From contig NZ_JAFIQX010000001.1 in the NCBI RefSeq assembly GCF_017356035.1, positions 992,001 to 1,056,000 on the forward strand: a stretch of DNA of 64,000 bases. Reading direction: 5' to 3'. A program made the position numbers and the translations under genes. The notes beneath the pieces were generated by a model. That model did not search any database, had not been told where the DNA came from, and worked only from the letters and a program-made list of their open reading frames with translations. This document shows, in pieces, positions 21,914 to 38,968 of the stretch; position 1 is the stretch's first letter; each line of letters starts with the position of its first letter. Source of the stretch: Longitalea luteola. GTDB taxonomy: Bacteria; Bacteroidota; Bacteroidia; Chitinophagales; Chitinophagaceae.

Positions 21914-24205
<2,292 letters not shown>

Positions 24206-24687: not shown

Positions 24688-26751
24688 ATGAAACATGCCC
24701 TCATCACTATCAATTTATTGATACTTCTTTCTGTTTGCACTTTCTGCCAGGATCCCTGGAAAATTACAGCCGGTTCAATAGACCCATCCAATTATTATGG
24801 CATTACCGTTGCCAATGGAATGATCGGTATTGTATCATCGCCGGAACCGCTAAAAGTAAAGGAGGTGGTGCTGGCCGGTGCTTATGATCTGTATGGCCGC
24901 GGGCGGGTGAGCAATTTTCTGCGCAGCTTCAACCTGCTGAACGTATACCTCGATATTGATGGCCGCCGGCTCGATGCCAAAAGTATAACCGGTTTTAAGC
25001 AGGAGCTAAATATGCGGCAGGCAGCCTTCACCGCTTCTTTTGATTACGGCGATAAAGCCACTATCAGCTATACTTACTATTCCTTACGCCATTTACCCTA
25101 CACTGTGTTGATGGATGTTAGCATAACTGCCAAAAAAGAGCTGGCCGTTACCGGCGCCAGCGTTATGGAAGCGCCGGATGCCCTGAAAGACGTACAGAAT
25201 TATTACAATGAGATCGACCGGCCGCATGTGGTACTCAGTTTGCTAACCTCAACAGCCAGATCGCCCACCGGCAAATTACTGATGTGCGCTACCAACACAT
25301 TCCTGTTTGATGAAGAGCATGGGCATGAACCCCGGGTCATCCATGAAATGTGGGATAACAACATGCACCTGATGAAGTTCTCCAAAAATATGAAAGCTGG
25401 AGAGCATTACCGTTTCTCCATTGCCGGTTCTTCCATCACTTCTGCACACCATGATGATCCGTTGAATGCCGCAGAACGCCTCACCATTTATGCAAAGCTG
25501 GAAGGGCGCAACCGGTTATTGCAGTTGCATCAAAAAGCCTGGGACAGCTTGTGGCGAAGCGATATTGTGATAGAAGGAGATGCCCAGGCACAACAGGACG
25601 TCCGCAGCATGCTGTATCATCTTTATTCCTTTGTTCGGGAAGGAACGGCCAATTCGCCTTCGCCCATGGGCTTAAGTGGACTGGGGTATAACGGCCATGT
25701 CTTTTGGGATGCGGAACTATGGATGTATCCGCCTTTGCTGGTGCTGCATCCTGAGCTCGCCAAAAGCATGATCGAATACCGGTTCCAACGGCTGGAAGCC
25801 GCGAAACGAAATGCTTTTACGAACGGGTTCAAAGGGGCGATGTACCCGTGGGAGAGTGCCGCCACCGGCGTGGAAGAAACGCCGGTATGGGCATTGAGCG
25901 GGCCTTTTGAACATCATATAACAGCTGATGTGGCCATAGCCGCGTGGAATTATTATGCGGTAACGCAGGACAAACAATGGCTTCGCGAAAAAGGGTATCC
26001 CATATTGTCTGCTACTGCCGACTTTTGGACAAGCCGGGTCGAACGAAATGGTCCGGGCCACTATGACATAAAAAATGTGGTAGCCGCCGATGAATGGGCC
26101 GAGAATGTAGACAACAATGCTTTTACCAATGCCGCTGCAAAAGCCAATCTGCAATACGCCACACAGGCCGCCATTCTGCTGGGTATTACGCCCAATGCTG
26201 ACTGGATGCAGGTGGCAAACAATATCCCTGTTTTAAAGATGCCCGCCCAGCCGGGGCAGTCAGCCGGGGCTGACGGTGTTACCCGGGAACACGCTACCTA
26301 TAAAGGAGAAGGCATTAAACAGGCGGATGTGAATTTGCTGGCTTATCCGTTGAAGGAGATCACTGATCCGAAACAGATCAAAAGAGACCTCGAGTATTAC
26401 GAAACCCGGGTGCCGCAGGAAGGTACGCCTGCTATGACGCAAGCGGTTTTTACGTTGCTGTATGCACGGTTAGGTGATACCAGCAAAGCGTATCATTGGT
26501 TCAGAGATGCTTATCTGCCCAACCTGAATCCGCCCTTCCGGGTGATAGCAGAAACGAAGGGCGGCACCAATCCTTATTTTGCAACGGGCGCCGGTGGTGT
26601 GCTGCAGGCGGTATTGATGGGTTTCGGTGGGTTGGAAATAACGCCTAAAGGGATCATTCAGATCAGATCCTCGCTTCCCGCCAACTGGAAAAAATGTACC
26701 ATCACCGGTGTTGGGCCGGCCAGGAAAACCTATAGCCGGGAAGCGAAATAA
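24688..26751 (+). CDS. Secreted glycoside hydrolase family 65 protein
   Basis: A 687-residue exported enzyme with a signal peptide (1-20). After an N-terminal beta-sandwich (20-260) comes the GH65 alpha/alpha-barrel: FWDAELWMYPPLLVLHPELAKSM-type segment (quoted around FWDAELWMYPP), ARRNAF-like YRFQRLEAAK, PWESAATGVEE, and VVAADEWAENVDNN with the probable general acid Glu in the DEWAE motif, followed by AFTNAAA. GH65 members are phosphorylases or hydrolases of alpha-linked glucosides; this exported, Bacteroidota-type form is more likely a hydrolase (inference). A C-terminal beta strand region closes the protein. Confidence 0.85.
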   Translation: MKHALITINLLILLSVCTFCQDPWKITAGSIDPSNYYGITVANGMIGIVSSPEPLKVKEVVLAGAYDLYGRGRVSNFLRSFNLLNVYLDIDGRRLDAKSITGFKQELNMRQAAFTASFDYGDKATISYTYYSLRHLPYTVLMDVSITAKKELAVTGASVMEAPDALKDVQNYYNEIDRPHVVLSLLTSTARSPTGKLLMCATNTFLFDEEHGHEPRVIHEMWDNNMHLMKFSKNMKAGEHYRFSIAGSSITSAHHDDPLNAAERLTIYAKLEGRNRLLQLHQKAWDSLWRSDIVIEGDAQAQQDVRSMLYHLYSFVREGTANSPSPMGLSGLGYNGHVFWDAELWMYPPLLVLHPELAKSMIEYRFQRLEAAKRNAFTNGFKGAMYPWESAATGVEETPVWALSGPFEHHITADVAIAAWNYYAVTQDKQWLREKGYPILSATADFWTSRVERNGPGHYDIKNVVAADEWAENVDNNAFTNAAAKANLQYATQAAILLGITPNADWMQVANNIPVLKMPAQPGQSAGADGVTREHATYKGEGIKQADVNLLAYPLKEITDPKQIKRDLEYYETRVPQEGTPAMTQAVFTLLYARLGDTSKAYHWFRDAYLPNLNPPFRVIAETKGGTNPYFATGAGGVLQAVLMGFGGLEITPKGIIQIRSSLPANWKKCTITGVGPARKTYSREAK

Positions 26752-27440
26752 GGTCGCCAGCACCGTATCAACACCGGTCTTACGTAGGTTCAGAAGACAT
26801 AACAATGGCATTCCGAGGTGGGATGACTAGTGTGCCGCAGGTAACAGTGATGGTCACGGGCTGCCATTCTTCCTGCTATAATCCGTTAGCACCTATTTTT
26901 CACCAGGTACCGGTGTAGGGGAAGTAAATGAGGGTAACGGATCGTACGCAGATTGCCGGTGTAAATGGCTCTTGAAAGGACGAATGGACGAAGGCCCGGT
27001 CAAACTGGCACGGCTAAAAAAATGTGTACCAGAATCCTTTTCCACATTGACGGGTAAAGTTTGTGTAAACGGATGGGCAATTTTAACGTTTAATCAATAA
27101 CATTTAAATACCAGATTCAGTATGCAATTGTACTTGTAGTGGAACGTGTGTCTATCAGTTCTAACACCAATATGTTGCCATTACACCTGTGGATATGTGG
27201 AAACAGCAGGGTTCAAACGATCCGTGCGGTACTTATATAGGTTTTCTTTTTTTTCAATTGATTATGAGTATATTATTAAATAAAGCAGGAGCCTTTCCAA
27301 AGCATTTTCAAGCTGCATTGATTTTGTTTTTACCAGGCAGATCCTGTGGCGCGACATCCTTTTTTCGGGGAAAGCACAACCACAAATCGGCCGGGTTTAT
27401 GGTGGCATAATTTTTCCAAGATGATTATAAAGTTTTGATC
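26752..27440. other. Non-coding stretch of 690 bases, possible mobile-element scar
   Basis: No frame here has coding character. Around 27048-27076 the sequence TTGACGGGTAAAGTTTGTG, continuing TAAACGG, resembles the terminal repeats of IS256-type elements (rule: TTTACACAAACTTT on the other strand), but no transposase or second end is seen. The rest shows no structure. Confidence 0.35.
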
Positions 27441-27653
27441 ATGGACAAACAGGATATAAAGAAGGATTTAAAAACTGACAGGAAAAAGACAGTAGAAGAA
27501 GAAAAAGACAATTCAGTTTCGCAACCTGATCCTGAAACACTTCATAAAACAGATCCTCAGGAAAGTATGAAGGGACCCGTTAGTTCCCTTGTAAATAAGG
27601 TAAAAGAAAACGCTGAGGAAAATGATGAAGAAGAAAATGATGAAAAAGAATGA
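27441..27653 (+). CDS. Small acidic, highly charged protein
   Basis: A 70-residue hydrophilic protein, starting at ATG 27441 (MDKQDIKKDL), rich in Glu, Asp and Lys with a run of acidic residues at the end (ENDEEENDEKE). Probably unstructured; no family recognised. A strong terminator follows, which supports it being transcribed. Confidence 0.6.
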   Translation: MDKQDIKKDLKTDRKKTVEEEKDNSVSQPDPETLHKTDPQESMKGPVSSLVNKVKENAEENDEEENDEKE

Positions 27654-27704
27654 ATAATAAAGACTGGAGATCCGTTGCTTTCCAAATCGGATAAGATTTA
27701 AAGG

Positions 27705-27728
27705 GCTATCATAATGATAGCTTTTTTT
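27705..27728 (+). terminator. Rho-independent terminator
   Basis: GCTATCAT (27705-27712) and ATGATAGC (27714-27721) form a perfect 8-bp stem followed by seven T (27722-27728). It insulates the exopolysaccharide promoter from upstream transcription. Confidence 0.85.
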
Positions 27729-27924
27729 GCCCGTCTGTTTAGGGAATGATATGTAGCTATAATATAGTACCTCATTAAAACCAAATTGCGATGAATTATT
27801 TGTTACATTTTGAAGTATTATACATCAAAACACCTACCGTTTGTTTACGTTTCATTGAACAATTGATTGAAGAAAAGTTTTCATTGAAACACTGATTATT
27901 TTAGAAGAATGGAGCCTGAATTAT

Positions 27925-27956
27925 TTGGTGGTATTAAATAAATATCTTTAATTTTG
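27925..27956 (+). promoter_or_regulatory. Predicted promoter of the exopolysaccharide operon
   Basis: TTG (27925-27927), 21-base spacer, TAATTTTG (27949-27956): exact consensus. Transcription from about 27963 would give a leader of about 840 bases before the UpxY-like gene, long leaders being typical of UpxY-controlled capsule loci. Confidence 0.6.
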
Positions 27957-28152
27957 AGACATATTCTAGAGCGGTTATGCAGAGGAAATAATACCACAGC
28001 GCTTGTCGAATGAGTGTTTTAAGTGGGTTCCTTTTTGATGTCATTCTTTTCTTTCGTGCTTTAATTTTCTATCCAATTATTCTTGCTAATTACTTTCATC
28101 CATTATCCAAACATACATAGTGATGTCGGGTTTGTCTAAATCTCTTTTATTC

Positions 28153-28173
28153 GGGATTATGATTGGCGAAGCC
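28153..28173 (+). repeat. Leader element copy 1
   Basis: GATTATGATTGGCGAAGCC preceded by GG. It holds a GGC-GAA-GCC mini-hairpin. Read as codons it gives a 7-codon frame, ATG to TGA, mirroring the first five codons of the UpxY-like gene. Confidence 0.7.
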
Positions 28174-28332
28174 TTTGTGTGATAAGTACAGTTGTTTTGA
28201 AGCCAGTGAGTGTTGAAGAAAAACCTTGTAGTCTTAAAAAAAAGGTATTAATTTATAGTGTTCTCTTATCCTCTTTCGATCCCCTTATTCTTTCATAATG
28301 TTAGCCTTTTTTAGCTGAATTGCAGTGAAACT

Positions 28333-28353
28333 GTGATTTTGATCGGCGGAGCC
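28333..28353 (+). repeat. Leader element copy 2
   Basis: GATTTTGATCGGCGGAGCC preceded by GT; the mini-hairpin is GGC-GGA-GCC. Confidence 0.7.
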
Positions 28354-28694
28354 GTACGTTTTGAGGAAGTGAAAAGATCGCGCAGCGATATTAAGGCTAA
28401 TGAATTGGTTAGGCGCTCTGATCCCTGGAAAGCAACCGGTAAATTCATTTGTTCGTAAAACTTTAAAAAACCAATTCAGACTTTAGCTGAAACTCCCGTT
28501 GTTCTAATAATCTACAACCAGCGATTTAATTCTTTTTGTTACTTAATTACCTTACTCTATTGATGCAGACAAGACTCCATTCAATTAGTTCTTTTAGTTT
28601 CATTCTTCTTTCGTTTCTACATCCATTATTCATGGTAATTCTTTCTCTATCCATTATCCAACTAAAGTATTTCGTTTACGTCTAGATCCGTATT

Positions 28695-28715
28695 GGGATT
28701 TTGATAGGCGGAGCC
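28695..28715 (+). repeat. Leader element copy 3
   Basis: GATTTTGATAGGCGGAGCC preceded by GG. A second small hairpin (GTACATC-CGT-GATG) follows it at 28721-28736. Confidence 0.7.
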
Positions 28716-28798
28716 GAACAGTACATCCGTGATGGTTGTACGAAAACCTGCACCTGTTTTATAGCGTTTACTTTTTCTCTTAATCCAAAACTAAAACT

Positions 28799-28819
28799 GG
28801 GATTATGATGGGCGAAGCC
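28799..28819 (+). repeat. Leader element copy 4, overlapping the UpxY-like start codon
   Basis: GATTATGATGGGCGAAGCC preceded by GG. It contains the ATG at 28805 and encodes the first five residues (MMGEA) of the antiterminator gene. Confidence 0.75.
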
Positions 28820-29377
28820 TTGTTATCAAAAAAAGAAGATTTGAAAGCTGTGAAGAAGTGGTATGCTGTATACACGCATGCCAAGTGGGAGAAAAAAGTT
28901 GCATCCTTATTTACCCGTAAAAACATTGAGAATTATTGTCCCCTGAACAGGGTCTTGCGCCAATGGAGCGACCGCAAGAAGATCGTGTATGAGCCATTGT
29001 TCACCTGTTATGTATTTGCCCGCGTAACGGAGAAAGAGCGTATAAGTGTATTACAAACAGATGGCGTTCTCAACTATGTTACCTGGCAGGGCAAACCCGC
29101 TGTTATACGCGACTCTGAAATTGAGGTCATCAAGAACTTCCTGTTGGAACACAGTAATGTAAGACTGGAGAAAATTGATGTGGATGTAAATGACAGGGTA
29201 CGCATTAAATGCGGCCTGTTCATGGAACAGGAAGGCCTGGTGATGGAAGTGCTGGGAAAAACCGTTCGGGTTTCATTGCCAACGCTTGGTTATGCCATGC
29301 TGGCTGAAATACCCAAATCGCATGTTGAAGTGGTGGACAGCAGGGGCAAGGGAGATGCTGAACATTTAATTTCCTAA
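28805..29377 (+). CDS. UpxY/NusG-family transcription antiterminator
   Basis: A specialised NusG paralogue, 190 residues. The NGN domain begins KKWYAVYTHAKWEKKVAS and includes the VYEPLFTCYVFARV core and the TDGVLNYVTWQGKPAVI segment; a KOW-type domain follows (DRVRIKCGLFMEQEGLV). Such proteins (UpxY in Bacteroides, RfaH/LoaP elsewhere) join RNA polymerase at a site in the leader and keep it going through long polysaccharide operons. It is the first gene of a 23.6-kb operon with a repeat-bearing leader, which fits. No UpxZ-like partner is seen. Confidence 0.92.
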   Translation: MMGEALLSKKEDLKAVKKWYAVYTHAKWEKKVASLFTRKNIENYCPLNRVLRQWSDRKKIVYEPLFTCYVFARVTEKERISVLQTDGVLNYVTWQGKPAVIRDSEIEVIKNFLLEHSNVRLEKIDVDVNDRVRIKCGLFMEQEGLVMEVLGKTVRVSLPTLGYAMLAEIPKSHVEVVDSRGKGDAEHLIS

Positions 29378-29392
29378 TAAATATATATTACC

Positions 29393-30226
29393 GTGAAGTC
29401 ACCGTATCAAAAACACAAAACCTTGTTTTACCAAAAGCTGCCCGCAAGGTTAAGCAACCGAACCTGGTTATGGGTGGTTCTGCTGGCCGGCATTATAGGC
29501 GCCTCCTGCACCAACACAAAGAAAGTGGTTTATTTCAGTGGTATTACTGAAACAGAGATCAACAACGCCATTGATAACCTGGAACCTGTAATTCAAAAGA
29601 ACGATCTGCTGAGTATTACTGTGAGCAGTCCGAACGCAACAGCCAGCCAACCCTTCAATACAGCTGTAACCGTTTCAACCCAGGCGATAGGATATACATC
29701 CACGCAGGCAACCGGTTACCTCGTTGATCAGGACGGTTTCATTGATATGCCAATGCTTGGCCGCATCAAAGCTGCCGGCTTAACCAAAAAAGGTCTGAAA
29801 GAAAGTATTACAAAGGTTATTACCGACAACAAATACCTGTTATATCCCGTAGTAACGGTTCGTTACCTGAATTTTAAAGTAACAGTATTGGGCGAAGTTG
29901 CCAAACCGATGGTGATCAATGTGCCTGATGAAAAAATAAACATCCTCGAAGCATTGGGCTTTGCCGGCGACATGACCGTGTATGCACGTCGTGATAACGT
30001 TACTTTGATCAGGGAAGAAAAAGGTACAAGAATAGTTAAAAGGCTTGATCTCAATTCCGGGAACCTGTTAACCTCTCCCTATTATTATCTCAAGTCGAAT
30101 GATATTCTATACGTAGAACCAAATAAACAGAAAGTTGCCACTGCAGGCAATACTCGTATATGGCTGCCGGCTATTTTGAGTGCGCTCTCACTGGCAGTTG
30201 TGATTATTGATCGATTAACAAGGTAG
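29393..30226 (+). CDS. Outer-membrane polysaccharide export lipoprotein (Wza family)
   Basis: A 277-residue export protein starting at GTG 29393. A hydrophobic stretch (VVLLAGIIGASC) with a lipobox Cys gives an outer-membrane lipoprotein. The PES domain follows (IQKNDLLSITVSSPN, then YLVDQDGFIDMPMLGRIKAAG) and an SLBB domain (FKVTVLGEVAKPMVINVPDE). A C-terminal membrane segment (IWLPAILSALSLAVVIIDRL) is typical of Bacteroidota members. It should form the outer-membrane channel with the Wzc-like protein encoded 2 bases downstream. Confidence 0.92.
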   Translation: MKSPYQKHKTLFYQKLPARLSNRTWLWVVLLAGIIGASCTNTKKVVYFSGITETEINNAIDNLEPVIQKNDLLSITVSSPNATASQPFNTAVTVSTQAIGYTSTQATGYLVDQDGFIDMPMLGRIKAAGLTKKGLKESITKVITDNKYLLYPVVTVRYLNFKVTVLGEVAKPMVINVPDEKINILEALGFAGDMTVYARRDNVTLIREEKGTRIVKRLDLNSGNLLTSPYYYLKSNDILYVEPNKQKVATAGNTRIWLPAILSALSLAVVIIDRLTR

Positions 30227-30228
30227 AT

Positions 30229-32619
30229 ATGCAAACTAACAAAAAATCAGGCAATGAAATGAACATCGTTTCAGTTGCCATCAACTGGTACCTGCCATAC
30301 TGGCCATTGTTCGTGCTACTTATTATTCTTGGCCTTGCAGGCGCGTGGGCTTACCTCAAGTATTATGCTACCCCTGTTTATGAAACGTATGCGACCATCA
30401 TGGTAAAAGACGAGAAAAAGGGAGTGGATGAATCAGGCGTACTGGAAGCCCTTCAAATTTATCCCACCAAGAATATCGTTGAAAATGAGATGGAGGTCAT
30501 TCACTCCAGGAAACTGATGGAAAAGGTGGTGGATCAATTGCAGTTGTATGCTCCCATTTATGAAGGCCCTACCAAAGGCAAAATGAAAGCTACTTCTGCT
30601 TACACCAGTTCGCCCATTGTTATTTCAGCAAAACGGCCCGAAGATCTGAAAGAGACCGGTGAACTGGATGTGCCCATTGCATTTACTTATGATAATGATA
30701 ACAATGCAGGAGAGTTCGAAGGACTTTCCAATAGAAAACCTACCGAAGTCATTATAGATGGCAAGCACTACCCGTTAGAGAAATGGTGCACTACGCCCTA
30801 TGGCGAATTGAAGTTTGACTACAACGAAAAGCTGGTGGAACCGGCACAGGGTCCATTGTTCTTCCGCCTGCACAGACCGAAAAATATAGCACCCAGCTTT
30901 ATCAGCAATCTGGAAGTTAGATCAGCCAGTAAGCTGTCAACTACGATCACCCTGGTGTTGAAAGATGAAGTGCCTGAAAGGGGCGAAGATATCCTGAACA
31001 AATTGCTGGTGGCCTATAACCTGTTATCTATAGAAGAAAAGAAGGGAACAGCGGCCAATACGCTGGAATTTATCGAAAGCCGGCTGGTAAAGGTGGAAAG
31101 AGAACTGGACTCCATTGAAAATACCATACAATCATTCAGGACCAGTCAGGGTGTGGTGGACCTTAGCCAGCAAAGCAAACAATACCTCGACAATGTAGGA
31201 AGCAACGATCGCAAGATAGCCGACCTCAGCATGCAGCTGGCAGCCCTGGACGAAATGGAACGTTATGTTAATTCAAGGGAGAATAATACAGACGATGTTG
31301 TACCTGCTGCAGTAGGCATCAGCGACCCGGTATTGAGCGACCTGATGCAGAAACTATACAATGCCAAAGTGGAATATGGCAAGCTGATGAACAGCACGGC
31401 AGAGAACAACCCCTTCGCCACTGCAGTAGCAAAGGAAATTGAACAAACGCGGCCGCTGATCCTGGAAAAACTGAGATCGCACCGGATCAACCTGGAGGCC
31501 AGCAAAAAAGACCTTACGGCCATCAGCGGTAATTACAACTCCATGCTTCGTTCCATTCCGCAAAAAGAAAGGGAGCTGATGAATATCAGCCGCGAACAGG
31601 TGATCAAAAAGAGTATCTATAATTACCTCCTGGAAAAACGCGAACAAACGGCGCTGGCCAGTTCATCGGCGGTTTCCGACAGCAAGATCATCGATTATGC
31701 CAAATCGAACCTGGTTCCTGTAAGCCCCAAGAAATCGCTGGTATATTTTGCCGTGCTGGCGGGTTCTATCGGTTTGGCAATCGGGTTGGTTTCGGCCAGG
31801 GAGATGCTGAACAAGAAGATCCTGTTCCGCTCAGAAATAGAATCACTCACCTCAGTACCTGTTATTGCAGAAATTGCGGCCAACAAGGAAAGCGAATCGC
31901 TGCTGCGGTCCGGTTCAAAGGTTTCTGTAGTGGCTGAGCAATTCAGGCACCTGCGGGCTGCTATTGGTCTGGTAGGCCGCCAGAAAGAAATGAAAATGAA
32001 ACGGATCCTGATAACCTCCAGCATCTCTTCCGAAGGAAAAACATACATAAGCACCAACCTGGCCAGGAGCCTGGCGTTGGCCGGCAATAAAGTGGTGCTG
32101 GTCGACCTCGACATCCGCAAGCCAAAAACATCGACCATCATGGGTGTGGTTGATAAACCGGGTGTGGCTGATTTCCTGGAAGGAACTAAGGAGCCGGAAG
32201 AGATCATCGGCAGCAGCATGGACCAGAATTTATATATCGTGAGCGCGGGCAGTGGGATCGAAAATGCCCGGGAGCAGATCCTGAGCGGCCGGTTAACCAT
32301 TTTGCTGAATTACCTCAACGCCAATTTCGATTATGTGATACTCGATGCTTCGCCCATCGATCCGGTTTCTGATTCATACGTATTATCAGATTATTGCGAT
32401 ATAACGCTGTTTATCATGCGTCATGGACGTACACCGAAAGCCATGGTGCAGATCCTTGACAGTAACAGCAAGTTCAAGGCATTGAAAAATCCACATATCG
32501 TCTTCAATGGCATTCGCTCCAGAGGCATTAAGGGTATGTATGGTTACAGCTATGGCTATGGCTATGAAAATGTATACCGCGAAAAGCCGAGCAGGAAATC
32601 AAAATTGCAACGGGTATAA
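30229..32619 (+). CDS. Wzc-like tyrosine autokinase/chain-length determinant
   Basis: A 796-residue inner-membrane co-polymerase fused to a bacterial tyrosine kinase. The Wzz part has membrane helices near 22-44 and 505-525 with coiled coil and GNVR-type sequence between. The kinase has a Walker A (TSSISSEGKT near 595-604), Walker A' (VVLVDLDIRKP, 620-630) and a Walker B-type YVILDASPID. The Tyr-rich tail (MYGYSYGYGYENVY) is the autophosphorylation cluster. It controls polymer length and export with the Wza-like protein. No cognate low-molecular-weight tyrosine phosphatase gene occurs in the operon. Confidence 0.94.
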   Translation: MQTNKKSGNEMNIVSVAINWYLPYWPLFVLLIILGLAGAWAYLKYYATPVYETYATIMVKDEKKGVDESGVLEALQIYPTKNIVENEMEVIHSRKLMEKVVDQLQLYAPIYEGPTKGKMKATSAYTSSPIVISAKRPEDLKETGELDVPIAFTYDNDNNAGEFEGLSNRKPTEVIIDGKHYPLEKWCTTPYGELKFDYNEKLVEPAQGPLFFRLHRPKNIAPSFISNLEVRSASKLSTTITLVLKDEVPERGEDILNKLLVAYNLLSIEEKKGTAANTLEFIESRLVKVERELDSIENTIQSFRTSQGVVDLSQQSKQYLDNVGSNDRKIADLSMQLAALDEMERYVNSRENNTDDVVPAAVGISDPVLSDLMQKLYNAKVEYGKLMNSTAENNPFATAVAKEIEQTRPLILEKLRSHRINLEASKKDLTAISGNYNSMLRSIPQKERELMNISREQVIKKSIYNYLLEKREQTALASSSAVSDSKIIDYAKSNLVPVSPKKSLVYFAVLAGSIGLAIGLVSAREMLNKKILFRSEIESLTSVPVIAEIAANKESESLLRSGSKVSVVAEQFRHLRAAIGLVGRQKEMKMKRILITSSISSEGKTYISTNLARSLALAGNKVVLVDLDIRKPKTSTIMGVVDKPGVADFLEGTKEPEEIIGSSMDQNLYIVSAGSGIENAREQILSGRLTILLNYLNANFDYVILDASPIDPVSDSYVLSDYCDITLFIMRHGRTPKAMVQILDSNSKFKALKNPHIVFNGIRSRGIKGMYGYSYGYGYENVYREKPSRKSKLQRV

Positions 32620-32643: not shown

Positions 32644-33732
32644 ATGAAAATTCTGGTTACAGGAAGCGCGGGTTTTATTGGTTTCTTTCTTACCAAAAAA
32701 CTGATTGAACGTGGCGACGAAGTGGTTGGCCTTGATAATATCAACGATTATTACGACGTCAATTTAAAGTATGCCCGTTTGGCTCAAAATGGTATTGACA
32801 AAGCCGGCATTGAATGGAATGTGCCCGTACAAAGCCATAAATTCTTGAACTACCGGTTTGTTAAAATGAACCTGGAAGATAAAACTCATATCCAGCGTTT
32901 GTTCAAAAAGGAAAAATTCGACATGGTGGCGCACCTTGCTGCACAGGCAGGCGTGAGGAATTCCATCAATAACCCGGATGTTTATATTCAGTCGAATGTG
33001 GCGGGGTTCCTCAATATCCTCGAGGCCTGCCGCCATCATAACATCCAGCACCTGGTGTATGCAAGCTCTTCCAGTGTATATGGACTGAATGAACAGATGC
33101 CTTTTTCAGTTACGCATTGCACCAATCACCCGGTGTCGATATATGCCGCTACCAAGAAGTCGAATGAGCTGATGGCGCATGCCTACAGCTATCTGTTCAA
33201 TATACCTACTACAGGTATGCGTTTCTTCACCGTATACGGTCCCTGGGGCCGGCCGGATATGGCTTATTATCTTTTTGCCGATGCCATTATGAAGGATCAG
33301 CCCATTATCGTTTTCAATGAAGGAAAAATGAAACGCGATTTTACTTACATCGATGACGTGGTGGATGGCATAGTACATGTATTGGATCAGCCGGCTAAGC
33401 CGGCTTCCTCATGGAGTGGCCTCAACCCCGATCCATCCCGCTCACCGGCGCCGTATCGCATCTATAATATCGGCAACGACCAGCCGGTGGAGTTAATTGA
33501 TTTTATTACGGAGATAGAAAAGAATTGCGGGAAAAAGGCAATCATTGAAATGAAGGACCAGGAAAAGAGCGATGTGTTGGCTACCTGGGCAGATATAAAT
33601 GAACTGGTTAAAAACTTCGATTACAGACCTCATACACCGATTCAAACAGGATTAAGCAAATTCATTCAATGGTTCAAGCAATACTATGCATTTGAGCAGA
33701 TGGAAATGAGCCAGGTAAATACAATTTATTAA
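32644..33732 (+). CDS. NAD-dependent sugar epimerase, UDP-glucuronate 4-epimerase (CapI) type
   Basis: A 362-residue extended SDR. TGSAGFIGFFL is the NAD-binding motif, YASSSSVYG and IYAATKKSNE supply catalytic Ser, Tyr and Lys, and DNINDYYDVNLKYARL plus RFFTVYGPWGRPDMAY are characteristic of the CapI group that converts UDP-glucuronate to UDP-galacturonate. Supplies a uronic-acid building block for the polymer. Note that the only sugar-nucleotide dehydrogenase in the operon looks GDP-mannose specific, so UDP-glucuronate would come from elsewhere. Confidence 0.9.
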   Translation: MKILVTGSAGFIGFFLTKKLIERGDEVVGLDNINDYYDVNLKYARLAQNGIDKAGIEWNVPVQSHKFLNYRFVKMNLEDKTHIQRLFKKEKFDMVAHLAAQAGVRNSINNPDVYIQSNVAGFLNILEACRHHNIQHLVYASSSSVYGLNEQMPFSVTHCTNHPVSIYAATKKSNELMAHAYSYLFNIPTTGMRFFTVYGPWGRPDMAYYLFADAIMKDQPIIVFNEGKMKRDFTYIDDVVDGIVHVLDQPAKPASSWSGLNPDPSRSPAPYRIYNIGNDQPVELIDFITEIEKNCGKKAIIEMKDQEKSDVLATWADINELVKNFDYRPHTPIQTGLSKFIQWFKQYYAFEQMEMSQVNTIY

Positions 33733-33742
33733 TAACGCCGCA

Positions 33743-35338
33743 ATGATTGAAAAACCGATAATAAGTAAACCCTCTGAAGATCTGGGAATTAATGGAGGAA
33801 AGCGCAGGGAGAACCTGAAGCAACGTGCCTATCTGAATACATTATCCAGTGTGATTGATTATACAGCAAACCGGCTTGCCGGTTTGCTTGTAAATCCTTT
33901 CATCATAACGGGATTGGGAACTTCTTTGTTTGGCATCTGGCAAATGCTCGGTCAGTTTACCGGTTATGTAAACATTGCCGACACCCGGTCATCGCAGGTG
34001 CTGAAATGGACAGTTGCACAAAAGAAGGACGTAGCTACAGTGGAGGAATTGAGAAGTGACGCTGGTGCCGCTTTTGTCGTAATGTTATTTGTAATGCCGG
34101 TGATTTTGATCGCCGGCAGTATTATTGCCTGGTATGCTCCTCATATAACCCATGCCGCTAAAGAACATTATACGCTGGTTCGCATTACCTGCTGCCTGCT
34201 GATCTTCTCAATTCTCGTTTTCAAATTCTTCGAATTGTTCGAAGCGATCCTGCGGGGAATGAACCTTACTTTCAAGCGCATGGGCTTCCGGGCAGGTATC
34301 GTGCTGCTGGGTGGAGGATTAAAAGTGCTGGCGCTCATCTGGGGCTGGGGTTTGATAGGGCTCGCAGGGGTTCACCTGGTAGAAAGTTTACTGATCGGTC
34401 TTTCCTTTTACATAGTGGTAAAAAGAAATGTTGACTGGTTCGGATTCAGCATGCCAAACCGTTCGAATGTTTTCCGTTTTGGCAAATTAAGCGCCTGGTA
34501 CCTGGCAGATGCAGGTGCCAATATGGTAAATACCAATAGCGACAAACTTTTACTGGGTATCGTGGCCGGTCCGGTTACAGTAGCTTATTACTCGCTCACG
34601 AAGTTTGTACCTGCTGCTTTGCAGGGACTGATCAACCGCCTGATCCTGGGCATCATGCCCGGCATAGGAAAGCTGCTCGGCCTGAAAGAATACGACAAAG
34701 TAAAAAGCGTCAGAAAGAATATTAACCGCATCTCATTGCTGCTGACTACTGCCTTTGGTACAACCATTATCATTTTCAACCAGTCGTTTTTAAGTGCCTG
34801 GGTAGGGAACGACCATTTTGCAGGACATACCGCCAATGCATTGATCATGTTAATGACCATCCAGGACACTTTCGTTCGCAACGATGCTTGTATCATCAGC
34901 GCTACGCTTGATATCAAAAAGAAAGTATTTCTCACCCTTATTGCAGGCGTTTTATTTGCAGCCTTTGGAATTGTACTGGCTAACAAAATGGGTATTGCGG
35001 GTCTTTGCCTCAGCATGATGATAAGCAGGTTGTTCTTATTTATCGGTCAACGCAAGATCCTCTCCGATCTGATGAAGACCACACAAACGCCTTCTATGGC
35101 AGTGAGCTACCGGCCGTTCCTGACTGCTCTTGCAATGCTGGGCTTGTCCATTTGGCTGTCAACAAATACCGGCCCACTGGGCATCTATCAAATGATCGTG
35201 TTGGCGCCGGTTGCCTTTGTCAGTTCTTTAGTACTGTTTTACCTGATGGGATTGAGCAGTGCAGACAGGCTGGAGTTTAAGCAGATTATAGGCTCCATAA
35301 AATTTTTCAAATCGGATACTGGCTTCAGCAAAAATTAA
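33743..35338 (+). CDS. Wzx-like polysaccharide flippase
   Basis: A 531-residue polytopic membrane protein with about 12-14 hydrophobic helices, matching the MATE/Wzx polysaccharide-biosynthesis family (YTANRLAGLLVNPFIITGLG, TSLFGIWQ, NTNSDKLLLGIVAGPVTVAY). It should flip the undecaprenyl-linked repeat unit to the periplasm. Neighbours (Wza, Wzc, Wzy homologues) make this a Wzx/Wzy-dependent pathway. A 40-residue hydrophilic N-terminus precedes the first helix. Confidence 0.88.
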   Translation: MIEKPIISKPSEDLGINGGKRRENLKQRAYLNTLSSVIDYTANRLAGLLVNPFIITGLGTSLFGIWQMLGQFTGYVNIADTRSSQVLKWTVAQKKDVATVEELRSDAGAAFVVMLFVMPVILIAGSIIAWYAPHITHAAKEHYTLVRITCCLLIFSILVFKFFELFEAILRGMNLTFKRMGFRAGIVLLGGGLKVLALIWGWGLIGLAGVHLVESLLIGLSFYIVVKRNVDWFGFSMPNRSNVFRFGKLSAWYLADAGANMVNTNSDKLLLGIVAGPVTVAYYSLTKFVPAALQGLINRLILGIMPGIGKLLGLKEYDKVKSVRKNINRISLLLTTAFGTTIIIFNQSFLSAWVGNDHFAGHTANALIMLMTIQDTFVRNDACIISATLDIKKKVFLTLIAGVLFAAFGIVLANKMGIAGLCLSMMISRLFLFIGQRKILSDLMKTTQTPSMAVSYRPFLTALAMLGLSIWLSTNTGPLGIYQMIVLAPVAFVSSLVLFYLMGLSSADRLEFKQIIGSIKFFKSDTGFSKN

Positions 35339-35350
35339 AACCTTATACAG

Positions 35351-36484
35351 ATGAAAATGTTGTTTGTTGCCCCCCGTTTTCATACCAACCAGGTGCAGTT
35401 GATAAAGAAGCTCCTGGACGAAAAACATGAAGTTTCTTTTCATGTCGCCAATATAGGACCCACCGAAGACCACAGCCTGATAGTGCCAACGACATTTAAA
35501 CAAAGCAAACTGTCGGTGATCGTGGAAAAGATCTTTGGAAAGGGCGCATCAACCAGAAAGAATTACTTCCCTAATCCAATAAAGTACTGGCAGGTCTTCA
35601 AACAATTGAACCCCGAAATGGTGGTTATACGTGATCCCTATAAATTGTTTTCACTGATGGCTGCTTTTTATGCGCGCATTACAAAAGCCAGGATCGTTTT
35701 TTACACACAGGAGAATTTATATCGGTCAAGGTCATGGCGGCTGCGGTTAAAACAAAAACTTACCATTCGCTTTTTCAGGGCTGCCTGGATGACCCCGATA
35801 AAAAGCAATGACATTTCCGGGAATAACAATGCGCTGAAATATATGTATTACGTACCGCTGCCTGTTACGGTAACTACTGAAGAAAAATTTAATAACCAGA
35901 TAGCAAACGAGGGGCCAAAAATATTGATGGTGGGTAAATACCACCAGGAAAGGAAGAAGCACCTGTTGTTTATCCGGGCATTGAGCCGGCTGAAGAACAA
36001 ATACCAGTTTACGGCAACGATCGTAGGAGAATGTGCTACCCCGGCGCAACAGCTCAACTTAAACACCATCAAACAGGAAGTGGATAACCTGAAACTTACC
36101 GGTTTGATCGATTTTAAACAGAATGTACCTTATCATAAGATGGCAGACCTGTATGCAGCGCATCACATTTTTGTGCTGCCGGCCATCAATGAACAATATG
36201 GCGTATCGGTGAACGAAGCAATGGGGTACGGCCTGCCTGTAATTTGTACCGATACCTGCGGTGCAAAATTCAATATTACCAATGGGCAGAATGGATTTGT
36301 TGTTAAATCAGATAACCTGGATGATCTCGCTGCTTCTTTGGAAAAGCTTATTTCCGATTATCAGAAACTAACACAAATGCGGGCGCAGTCGCTGCAATAT
36401 GCCCGGGAGAACCTTTCCGCCGATACCTTTTATTCCAAATTTGCCCAATTGACCCGCGAACGTTTTTCGATCGCCATGAACTAG
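35351..36484 (+). CDS. Glycosyltransferase, GT4-like
   Basis: A 377-residue GT-B enzyme. N-terminal MKMLFVAPRFHTNQ opens the acceptor domain; the nucleotide-sugar domain shows KILMVGKYHQERK and the EX7E region EQYGVSVNEAMGYGLPVICT, followed by NGFVV. It adds one sugar to the lipid-linked unit on the cytoplasmic side. Donor and linkage unknown. Confidence 0.9.
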   Translation: MKMLFVAPRFHTNQVQLIKKLLDEKHEVSFHVANIGPTEDHSLIVPTTFKQSKLSVIVEKIFGKGASTRKNYFPNPIKYWQVFKQLNPEMVVIRDPYKLFSLMAAFYARITKARIVFYTQENLYRSRSWRLRLKQKLTIRFFRAAWMTPIKSNDISGNNNALKYMYYVPLPVTVTTEEKFNNQIANEGPKILMVGKYHQERKKHLLFIRALSRLKNKYQFTATIVGECATPAQQLNLNTIKQEVDNLKLTGLIDFKQNVPYHKMADLYAAHHIFVLPAINEQYGVSVNEAMGYGLPVICTDTCGAKFNITNGQNGFVVKSDNLDDLAASLEKLISDYQKLTQMRAQSLQYARENLSADTFYSKFAQLTRERFSIAMN

Positions 36485-36522
36485 TTCCGTGCTTCATTAA
36501 ACCACAAAAAGGGGAGGCCCTA

Positions 36523-37761
36523 ATGACACCGTTTTTTCTGTTCCTTCAGTTTGTTTGCTTTTATGGACTTGGTATTTATGTGATACTTAAAAAGAATGAG
36601 CGGGGAATTTTTTATCTGCCGGTATTGTTCTTTGTAGAAAAGATAGTAGGTGTGCTTAGTCCGGCTTTCCTTTACTATGGTCTTATATCTTTTATCATCG
36701 TGTTACAAATTGTAAGGAATTCTTCGTTCTTTAAAAACAATATTTTTTCATTTCTGCTGATCATATACTTTTTTGCTTTATTGACCCAGTCTGAGAACCT
36801 GACATTGATAAGGCCATTCTTTTTCTCGGTTATCTGGTTGTTCTTATTGATAGCGTTAATTCCGTCTATTTATGCAAAGTTTACCAGGGAGGAGGTTTTT
36901 AAGGAATTGTGCAATGCCTGCTTCCTGATACTGATACTTTTTATAGCCAATGCCCTTGTGTCTACGGTTTATAAGTTTTCGCCCATGGGCATGTATGGTA
37001 TTACAAAAGGTGTCATGTACGGCAACCTGTGGGCGGCGGCTTTCAATACCCTGTCTACAGCGCTTTTTGTAGTGTTTCTAAAAGGCATTACCGAACGTAA
37101 GCACATGTATGTAATTCTATCCGTTGTTTCCCTTTTCTTCATCATGCTTACGTTGCGCCGCACTGTTATGGCGTTAAGCGCTTTCGGAATAGTGGTTGGT
37201 ATGCTTACCCTCATGACCCAGAAGAAGGCTAAAATGGTATTCGTTATGATGGGCCTGGTTGTTGTAACTGGTTTTGTGATCTATTCCAATACCAATTTTT
37301 TACAGGAGTTCAATGAAAGGGTGGAGCTGCGTAAACTGGATGACCGGGCGCTGGCTGAAGAAAAGCGCTTCATAGAATATGATCTGTTGTATGCTGATAT
37401 GTTCGTGTACAATGCATATAGTCCCTGGTTCGGCTTTGGATTATTTAACAGCGCCGGCAACTATGGCAATGGTTTCCTGGGCGACAGAAGCCTGCATGGA
37501 GATATTCCGAATCTGCTGCATTCAAGTGGGATAATAGGAGTGCTTCTGTATCTTTTAATGGTAGGAACTGCATTTGCCCAGTCGATCAAAGCCGCCAATA
37601 GATACTTTGACAAATTATTGATTCTTTTCTGTACAGGATCTTTTTTGGTTTATACGGTTACGGGCCGGTATACCGAGATAGCTTCAACACTGTTGTTATT
37701 TCTCGTACTTATGATGCCTTTAGCAAAAGATGAACCGCCTACCGAAGAGACCGAGGTATAA
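36523..37761 (+). CDS. Wzy-like O-antigen/exopolysaccharide polymerase
   Basis: A 412-residue protein with about 10-12 membrane helices and a large periplasmic loop ending in YSPWFGFGLFNSAGN, the O-antigen ligase/polymerase (WzyC-like) signature region with charged RFIEYD before it. It joins repeat units in the periplasm. The gene is AT-richer than its neighbours, common for polymerases. Confidence 0.85.
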   Translation: MTPFFLFLQFVCFYGLGIYVILKKNERGIFYLPVLFFVEKIVGVLSPAFLYYGLISFIIVLQIVRNSSFFKNNIFSFLLIIYFFALLTQSENLTLIRPFFFSVIWLFLLIALIPSIYAKFTREEVFKELCNACFLILILFIANALVSTVYKFSPMGMYGITKGVMYGNLWAAAFNTLSTALFVVFLKGITERKHMYVILSVVSLFFIMLTLRRTVMALSAFGIVVGMLTLMTQKKAKMVFVMMGLVVVTGFVIYSNTNFLQEFNERVELRKLDDRALAEEKRFIEYDLLYADMFVYNAYSPWFGFGLFNSAGNYGNGFLGDRSLHGDIPNLLHSSGIIGVLLYLLMVGTAFAQSIKAANRYFDKLLILFCTGSFLVYTVTGRYTEIASTLLLFLVLMMPLAKDEPPTEETEV

Positions 37762-37792
37762 TTGAATATTTATCTAACAAACCAATTCAGCG

Positions 37793-38968
37793 ATGGCCAG
37801 ATTTTTATTTTACGATGACAAGCTCATCAACCTGATGATGCAGGAAGAAAAGCCCTGTGGTGGTTCAGCCGTACAATCATTTGCCTGGATGATGGGACTT
37901 CTTGAAGAAGGGCAGGAGGTGTATGTAATGACCAATTCGCCCGGCAAAAAACTTTTGAAAGAGGAGTGTAGCCGGATCAGGCTGGTTCCCATGTTTGAAC
38001 CGAACAAAGGTGTGCGCTGGCTGCGGTGGCTCTATTACCGGCTGCCACATACTTACAGGAGTATAAAAGCGGCGAAGCCTGATTATTTATATGTAGGCAT
38101 TCCTGCTTGGACATCATTCTTTCTCGGGATCATTTGCCGGATGCTGAAAATTAAATTGATCCACCGGATATCGAGCGATATCCAGCTTGACAACCGCTTC
38201 CGCAAGGATAATTCCTTCATGCACCAGTTCCTCCTGAACATGGGCTTCAGGCTGTCGCATCATATATTATGTCAGAACAATTATCAATTGATGATGGTGG
38301 GGAAAAAATTCCCGGGCAAATCCACTATCAAGATCTTCAATCCTTTTTATGTAAAGAACGAGGAGCCGGTTGATACAAGTTCAAGACGGTATATAGCCTG
38401 GGTGGGCATTTACCGCTACCCGAAGAACCTGAAAATGTTATTTGAAATAGCCAGCATTTTAAGAAATGAACGGTTTGTTGTTGCCGGCAAAGAAGGAGCG
38501 AAGATGGATTCGGAAACCAGCTATTACCTCGAAAAACTGAAACACTTGCCCAATGTGTCATTCTGTGGTTATTTACAACGCGAGCAGGTTATGCCCTTCA
38601 TTGCGAACGCTAAATTTTTACTGAACACTTCCCGCTATGAAGGCTTCAGCAATACATTTCTGGAAGCGCTGTCGGTTGGCACGCCAATTTTATCAGGCGT
38701 AAATGTTAACCCCGATTCAATTATTTCAAGATACAACCTGGGCCTCATTTATAACGATGTGTTCGACCTGTGCAAACAGTATGCTTCTATAACACCTGAG
38801 CTGTACCAGCTGATGTCGGATAATGCAAGATCGTATGTGGCGAACAATCATGGATACAGGTTACTGGCCAGGAATCTGCTCAGGTATCTTTCAGAAATGG
38901 ATCGAATAATACCCATTCGTAGCAATACACGCCTGATAACACTTACCGATCAGGCTACACATGCATAA
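37793..38968 (+). CDS. Glycosyltransferase, GT4-like
   Basis: A 391-residue GT-B protein. The C-terminal half carries RYIAWVGIYRYPKNLKML and the donor-site pattern SRYEGFSNTFLEALSVGTPI with the conserved acidic pair. N-terminal GGSAVQSFAWMMGLLEEG matches the acceptor-domain loop. Third gene in a set of sugar-adding enzymes between the polymerase and deacetylase genes. Confidence 0.9.
   Translation: MARFLFYDDKLINLMMQEEKPCGGSAVQSFAWMMGLLEEGQEVYVMTNSPGKKLLKEECSRIRLVPMFEPNKGVRWLRWLYYRLPHTYRSIKAAKPDYLYVGIPAWTSFFLGIICRMLKIKLIHRISSDIQLDNRFRKDNSFMHQFLLNMGFRLSHHILCQNNYQLMMVGKKFPGKSTIKIFNPFYVKNEEPVDTSSRRYIAWVGIYRYPKNLKMLFEIASILRNERFVVAGKEGAKMDSETSYYLEKLKHLPNVSFCGYLQREQVMPFIANAKFLLNTSRYEGFSNTFLEALSVGTPILSGVNVNPDSIISRYNLGLIYNDVFDLCKQYASITPELYQLMSDNARSYVANNHGYRLLARNLLRYLSEMDRIIPIRSNTRLITLTDQATHA

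Follow-up and report, generated by a model that had tools for sequence, protein, structure and literature searches.

The window analysed here, a stretch of 64,000 nt from the genome of Longitalea luteola, contains a polysaccharide locus whose long leader carries the same short sequence four times, which raises the question of what these repeats do. We consider it likely that they represent an ops-like cis-acting recruitment (and pause) site at which the product of the downstream gene, a NusG paralogue of the UpxY family, joins RNA polymerase. The reading as a recruitment site draws on the sequence of the repeats, their conservation, strand and position, the variants found with different UpxY groups, the co-occurrence with UpxY across genomes, and the genes lying behind many distant copies.

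The gene that follows the repeats (28805..29377, + strand) encodes a protein of 190 aa, which matched the Pfam NusG family with 64.4 bits and NCBIfam NF033644 with 137.6 bits (cut-off 100), and which is by NCBIfam a UpxY-family antiterminator. It belongs to group A of the UpxY paralogues described below; a group C member and a group D member scored 134.2 and 146.6 bits, respectively, against NF033644, and the RfaH, LoaP and NusG models stayed below their own cut-offs. In the predicted model of the window UpxY (mean pLDDT 67.7 overall, with a poor C-terminal part), the N-terminal NGN domain aligned with the RfaH of RfaH-ops complexes (TM-score to the target of 0.84 for 8pen). An RfaH-like helical C-terminal domain was considered and rejected, as the model has strands there instead, at low confidence.

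According to the Pfam matches of the downstream genes, upxY leads a capsule/EPS locus on the + strand. The first gene past upxY encodes a Wza-like polysaccharide export protein (29393..30226; Poly_export, E 1.6e-14), followed by a chain-length regulator with Wzz/GNVR and ATPase matches (30229..32619) and by genes for an epimerase, a flippase-like protein, two glycosyltransferases and an O-antigen-ligase-like protein slightly under its Pfam cut-off (32644..38968). No match to the UpxZ family (Pfam) was obtained in the seven genes tested 3' of the window upxY, but since UpxYs without UpxZ are noted in PMC7593976, the missing upxZ is not decisive against UpxY membership.

The first-pass annotation had proposed a consensus promoter and an 840-base leader in front of this gene. 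A match to the Bacteroidetes-type promoter pattern TTTG-N21-TANNTTTG does lie at 27924..27956 (+ strand) and gives a leader of about 840 nt, but the pattern was not commoner in the window than chance (3 observed, 3.45 expected). A slightly looser pattern was found about 150-390 nt ahead of the first copy in 6 of the 10 group A leaders, the window counted, and none was found there in the other 4. Scanning of 26700-29500 gave no sigma-70 promoters or intrinsic terminators on the + strand. An inverted repeat with a T run behind the preceding gene (27700..27728, + strand; arms 27700-27712 and 27714-27726), which was not called by the terminator scan, is a possible terminator isolating the leader.

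Within the leader, GATTNTGATNGGCGNAGCC matched exactly on the + strand at 28155, 28335, 28697 and 28801. The four copies originally placed at 28153, 28333, 28695 and 28799 are thus borne out by the pattern search, those starts lying two bases upstream because the leading G-G or G-T was included. When up to three mismatches were allowed, GATTNTGATNGGCGNAGCC occurred 6 times in the window against 0.65 expected, a number reached in none of 100 shuffles, and exact matches of the pattern first proposed are predicted from base composition alone at 5e-8 per 840 nt. The four copies are therefore real and beyond chance. They occupy 28153..28175, 28333..28355, 28695..28717 and 28799..28821, all on the + strand. 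The hairpin reads GGC-GAA-GCC in copies 1 (28165-28173) and 4 (28811-28819) and GGC-GGA-GCC in copies 2 (28345-28353) and 3 (28707-28715), in agreement with the loops first described, and the ATG at 28805 of the antiterminator ORF (28805-29377) does lie inside copy 4. In its full form the element is AATGGGATTATGATN-GGC-GRA-GCC-NT, with about 23-25 nt conserved and a near-invariant T ten bases past the first G of the hairpin. The window copies read GGCGAAGCC or GGCGGAGCC, and the ops sequence GGCGGTAGCGTG was not matched. Rfam 15 returned three matches for 26700-29500 of the window, the best at E 2.8 and all below the gathering scores, and no match at E<=2 for 7 further loci, drawn from the other UpxY groups and from other families. 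A description of the element was not found in the literature searched, which left out most subscription papers.

Ten genomes of the genus were searched; these have several UpxY paralogues, which we named groups A to D. Group A, to which the window's gene belongs, comprised 10 loci (9 and the window) in nine genomes, and no such locus was found in the tenth genome, which is 61% complete. The A-type element, gathered by the pattern GGCGNAGCC, was present in all 10 group A leaders, with 25 copies in total (4, 3, 3, 3, and 2 in each of the remaining six). Presence in related leaders had been named beforehand as the finding on which the proposal would stand or fall; besides these 10 of 10 leaders, related forms were found at the other UpxY groups. 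Copies of one leader were 0.84 identical within the element and 0.24-0.38 identical in ten-base blocks outside it (chance, 0.27), and their likeness is thus confined to about 23 nt; a recent tandem duplication as the source of the copies was rejected on these figures. In half of the 10 group A leaders the start codon falls within the last copy, whereas in the other 5 the last copy ends up 42-91 nt ahead of the matched start of the gene. The feedback proposed for copy 4 on the translation of its own gene is thereby supported only in part.

In groups B, C and D the typical forms are TGTAACTGAGTTG-GGC-GGA-GCC, TGTGACTGAGGGA-AGC-GGGA-GCT and TGTGACTGASGA-GGC-GAA-GCY, respectively, each present once per leader within about 130 nt before the gene. 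A general pattern, written after inspection of these leaders, was found in all 30 leaders of groups B, C and D (in 30 of 31 when one outlying paralogue is counted), and on the reverse strand in none of them. For group D, 2 of 9 elements were recovered when GGCGNAGCC was required and 9 of 9 with a relaxed pattern. Compared with group A, groups B, C and D resemble it in the hairpin half and depart from it in the 5' half, and for this reason specificity is likely to be encoded in the 5' half.

Sites beyond these leaders were sought with R2, a model built from Chitinophagaceae leaders, with B-, C- and D-type leaders among its training sequences. In the window's own genome, only the three leaders of groups B, C and D fell below E=0.1, with the next match at 0.39; the A-type copies of the window matched weakly (13.7 and 12.2 bits). 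Across the ten genomes of the genus, 16 matches reached E<1e-3, 14 of them UpxY leaders, and 34 reached E<0.01, of which 29 were UpxY leaders. Behind the others (2 of the best 16; 5 of 34 at E<0.01) no gene with a polysaccharide link was recognised.

Of 78 sampled Chitinophagaceae genomes, the window's own and that of one congener included, 67 encode a relative of the window protein (E<=1e-15). Outside the genus, the strict general element occurred within 400 nt at 40 of 88 Chitinophagaceae loci and at 0 of 88 on the reverse strand. With R2 at E<=0.1, 52 of these 88 loci, many of which had served to train the model, were positive, and every match was on the upxY strand; 36 were negative, and for 60 of the 88 the sequence examined did not extend downstream. 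Few of the more distant relatives (L196-L217) have the element. Outside the family, 34 places were listed, 27 of them with loci, and R2 matched at 16 of these 27 upxY loci at E<=0.023, always on the upxY strand, 12 times after upxY and 4 times before it; 11 loci were negative. The gene next to the element after upxY was assessed by Pfam at 11 of the 12 loci. It encodes a clear polysaccharide enzyme in 4 (L312, L317, L318 and L319) and belongs in 5 to types that are also found elsewhere, namely asparagine synthase (L297, L304), ABC transporter parts (L301, L296) and FkbM methyltransferase (L302); at 2 (L310 and L316) it has no polysaccharide link. In one further family of the class, for which 40 places were listed and 28 new UpxY loci tested, none of the 28 had an R2 match below E=0.3, and of two loci tested earlier one had a weak match at 0.023. 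As a side observation, an element with a spacing of 12 may read ATG-GGA-CTG-AGG-AGG-CGA-AGC (MGLRRRS), giving possible spurious ORF starts (L317, L290, L357).

R2 was also run on whole Chitinophagaceae genomes, comprising all eleven sampled genomes without a close UpxY relative, defined as having no match to the window protein at E<=1e-15, and sixteen hand-picked genomes with one. All 16 genomes with a close relative gave a match at E<1e-3 and none of the 11 without one did, two of the latter having weaker matches (0.006 and 0.17). Ten of the sixteen positive genomes had contributed sequences to R2; the six outside the training set (G013, G039, G053, G063, G077 and G079) were all positive (exact test against 0 of 11, 8e-5). 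When the eleven were searched with the UpxY family model, G093 had a protein above the cut-off (111.4 bits) and yet no element, nine had sub-threshold NusG-type matches only, and G056 had none. Reassigning G093 as UpxY-bearing gives 6 of 7 versus 0 of 10 (5.7e-4). Element presence thus tracks close UpxY relatives across the sampled genomes.

Copies were also found away from upxY, before genes that are candidate trans targets. In the genus, R1, the A-type model, gave 34 matches at E<0.01, consisting of the 25 leader copies and 9 others, and 8 of these 9 precede one of three recurring genes, the ninth having no clear target. Four precede orthologous genes whose product, 417-419 aa long, is probably secreted, two precede a Poly_export gene and two a methyltransferase-like gene; a fifth A-type copy before a gene of the 417-aa type was found at E 0.0148. 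The single secreted-type protein tested had a weak match to the T9SS sorting domain (26.5 bits, cut-off 27). All five cases of the 417-aa type have a TANNTTTG box about 30 nt ahead of the motif, and their elements would therefore be transcribed near the 5' end. This gene, at L008:9540-10796 with orthologues at L121, L122, L123 and L287, carries an A-type element and promoter box in each instance; the Poly_export (Wza-like) gene lies apart from upxY-A with an A-type element of its own in two species (L125, L128).

The R2 scan of the chosen Chitinophagaceae genomes likewise gave 34 matches at E<0.01, 13 before upxY and 21 elsewhere, of which 17 were fetched. A polysaccharide gene was first or second behind the element in 11 of these 17, with the element of L353 directly after upxY, and in 6 of the 17 no polysaccharide gene was found in these positions. 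Two further kinds of site were observed in these scans. A shared stretch of up to about 200 nt that includes the element is dispersed before a different ORF each time (DUF7003 and DUF1493 among them), at L281, L282, L283, L285 and L286 in the genus and at L360-L363 in G089, and looks like one leader joined to many accessory genes. Element-like sites reading GGCGAAGCA occur before tyrosine integrase genes (L354, L367), one of them in a genome without any UpxY-model match.

What kind of signal the element may be is suggested by its register, GGCG-N4-Y-N-T-G, which is that of the K-12 ops sequence GGCGGTAGCGTG. The consensus pause is marked by G-11 G-10 and Y-1 G+1, and the last T-G of ops GGCGGTAGCGTG are the pause position and the next base. 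In the commonest spacing class (spacing-12, n=36), the 3' half reads GGCGAAGCYNTG; T23, which the search pattern did not demand, was present in 36 of 36 (100%), the first G in 97% and G24 in 63%, and the second G in 100%, as the pattern demanded. The A-type element has the T but mostly no G behind it. Hairpins of d(GCGAAGC) and GNA loops are unusually stable DNA mini-hairpins. The outer pair of the stem was G-C in 19 copies, G-T in 20, A-T in 8 and other in 1, with no change on both sides, and covariation support is weak because the stem is nearly invariant and the outer pair alone varies. The folding program predicted a stem-loop with modest energies and no preference for DNA over RNA. Of the 25 A-type copies, 24 have A or G as the middle base of the loop and 1 has T, leaving no counterpart to the flipped-out T of ops. 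The original claim of loading or pausing sites is supported in part, being in agreement with the related leaders and the co-occurrence.

Given the hairpin of ops, which forms in non-template DNA (PMC5995543), and the contact of UpxY with the upstream duplex reported for Bacteroides (Saba 2024, as cited in PMC12691694), we infer a course of pausing, hairpin formation in the non-template DNA, direct UpxY contact, antitermination and action in trans. RNA polymerase leaving the promoter near 27956 would cross each copy in turn. Pausing at a copy would expose the 3' half (GGC-GNA-GCC and then the conserved T) as a small non-template hairpin, and the 5' half (TGGGATTATGAT) would stay in the upstream duplex during the pause, a partition expected because the register matches ops. 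UpxY-A would bind the paused complex, probably reading both halves, and would render the polymerase processive for the long polysaccharide operon; it may also serve in trans those few genes elsewhere in the genome that bear an A-type element.

Like RfaH ops/JUMPstart of E. coli, the element lies in leaders of polysaccharide operons, in one orientation and at several sites per genome, and both systems have the 12-nt block GGCG-N4-(C/T)-N-T-G in equal register, a short GC stem capped by a G...A loop, and a NusG paralogue with an NGN domain. They differ in the loop, which is GGTA in ops and a GNA triloop (GNNA in group C) with no T to flip in the element, and the element is further unlike ops in its conserved 5' half varying by UpxY group, in having up to four copies per leader and in its overlap with the start codon. 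Homology to JUMPstart/ops was rejected by profile, the K-12 ops sites ranking just 139 and 1938 of 70956 windows, and because of this low rank we limit the likeness to the short register and the GC-G..A-GC plan. The UpxY systems of Bacteroides share with the window a UpxY protein heading a capsule/EPS locus and a long leader before upxY (PMC7819879), but the window locus has no UpxZ match in seven genes and has candidate trans targets. The comparison with the Bacteroides type is one of protein and locus layout, and R2 did not find the element at 28 UpxY loci of one other family of the class. LoaP of the dfn system is also a NusG paralogue needing a small leader hairpin (PMC12691694); that hairpin is an RNA with a UNCG tetraloop, whereas the window copies have a GAA or GGA loop and a conserved unpaired 5' half.

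The dfn system suggests a different reading of the same features, in which the hairpin with its GNA/GNNA loop is recognised in the nascent RNA by UpxY, or by a partner of it, before transfer to the polymerase. Strand bias and leader position suit RNA equally well as non-template DNA, 20 of 48 outer pairs are G-T (G-U in RNA), a common type, the group C form carries a GGGA tetraloop on a longer AAGC/GCTT stem, and LoaP itself uses an RNA hairpin (PMC12691694). However, the conserved 5' half is predicted to be unpaired, the stem has just 3-4 bp, the register agrees with the ops pause site, and the UNCG loop of LoaP is missing from the window copies, so that we regard recognition in RNA as rather unlikely. 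A signal at the level of translation appears highly improbable, whether it consists of upstream ORFs (NTG-ATN-GGC-GNA-GCC) or of a hairpin at the start codon to which UpxY or some ribosome factor binds. A-type copies do hold an in-frame ATG, TTG or GTG, and copy 4 is the upxY start, but the ATG-ATN frame is missing in the other UpxY groups. Upstream ORFs were rejected on the 25 copies collected by GGCGNAGCC, in which the wobble bases of GGC and GCC are fixed while the varying loop base changes the amino acid, and bases rather than a peptide therefore look conserved.

The element might instead belong to an alternative promoter or be the DNA operator of a conventional transcription factor, and in 6 of 9 trans targets examined it does lie 29-41 nt past a TANNTTTG box, near enough for a promoter-proximal factor. 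We hold this to be very unlikely, given the single orientation, the copies up to about 850 nt into the leader with one on the start codon, the tracking of UpxY group by element type, and the lack of any match at E<1e-3 in the 11 genomes without a close UpxY relative. Hardly any credence is given to the idea that a tyrosine recombinase uses the element as its recombination site or mobile repeat and that the presence in polysaccharide loci is fortuitous. Such an origin would fit the two R2 matches ahead of tyrosine integrases, of which one comes from a genome lacking a UpxY match, and the two dispersed repeat sets in which the element and a shared leader of about 200 nt precede unrelated ORFs. 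However, the integrase-linked matches are weaker (E 0.0026 and 0.006) and their GGCGAAGCA breaks the outer pair, UpxY or polysaccharide genes accompany most matches in one orientation, and the A-type copies share little sequence beyond the element.

The element is real and widespread; in Bacteroidota, variants that can still be recognised lie next to antiterminator genes and ahead of many operons for sugar polymers, and, judged from sequence comparison, it is best read as an ops-like site for UpxY recruitment. A bolder version, which we put forward only tentatively and think less probable than not, is a two-part code in many Bacteroidota: a shared non-template hairpin half would anchor any UpxY and the 5' duplex half would pick the co-resident one, serial copies would give serial chances of loading, and a last site on the upxY start would let loading and translation gate each other.

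According to PMC7593976 (2020), E. coli RfaH is the sole RfaH representative whose mode of recruitment is described in detail. The element is predicted to serve UpxY proteins as an address tag across many lineages of the class, and it yields candidate target genes for each genome. The presence of four natural variants in one cell makes specificity among UpxY proteins open to direct test. UpxY proteins with RfaH-like trans targets are predicted, in contrast to the resident-operon picture of Bacteroides fragilis. Elsewhere in the window, and with no relation to the element, a peroxidase-family protein is encoded on the minus strand at 21914-24193 (Pfam peroxidase, 241 bits in two stretches).
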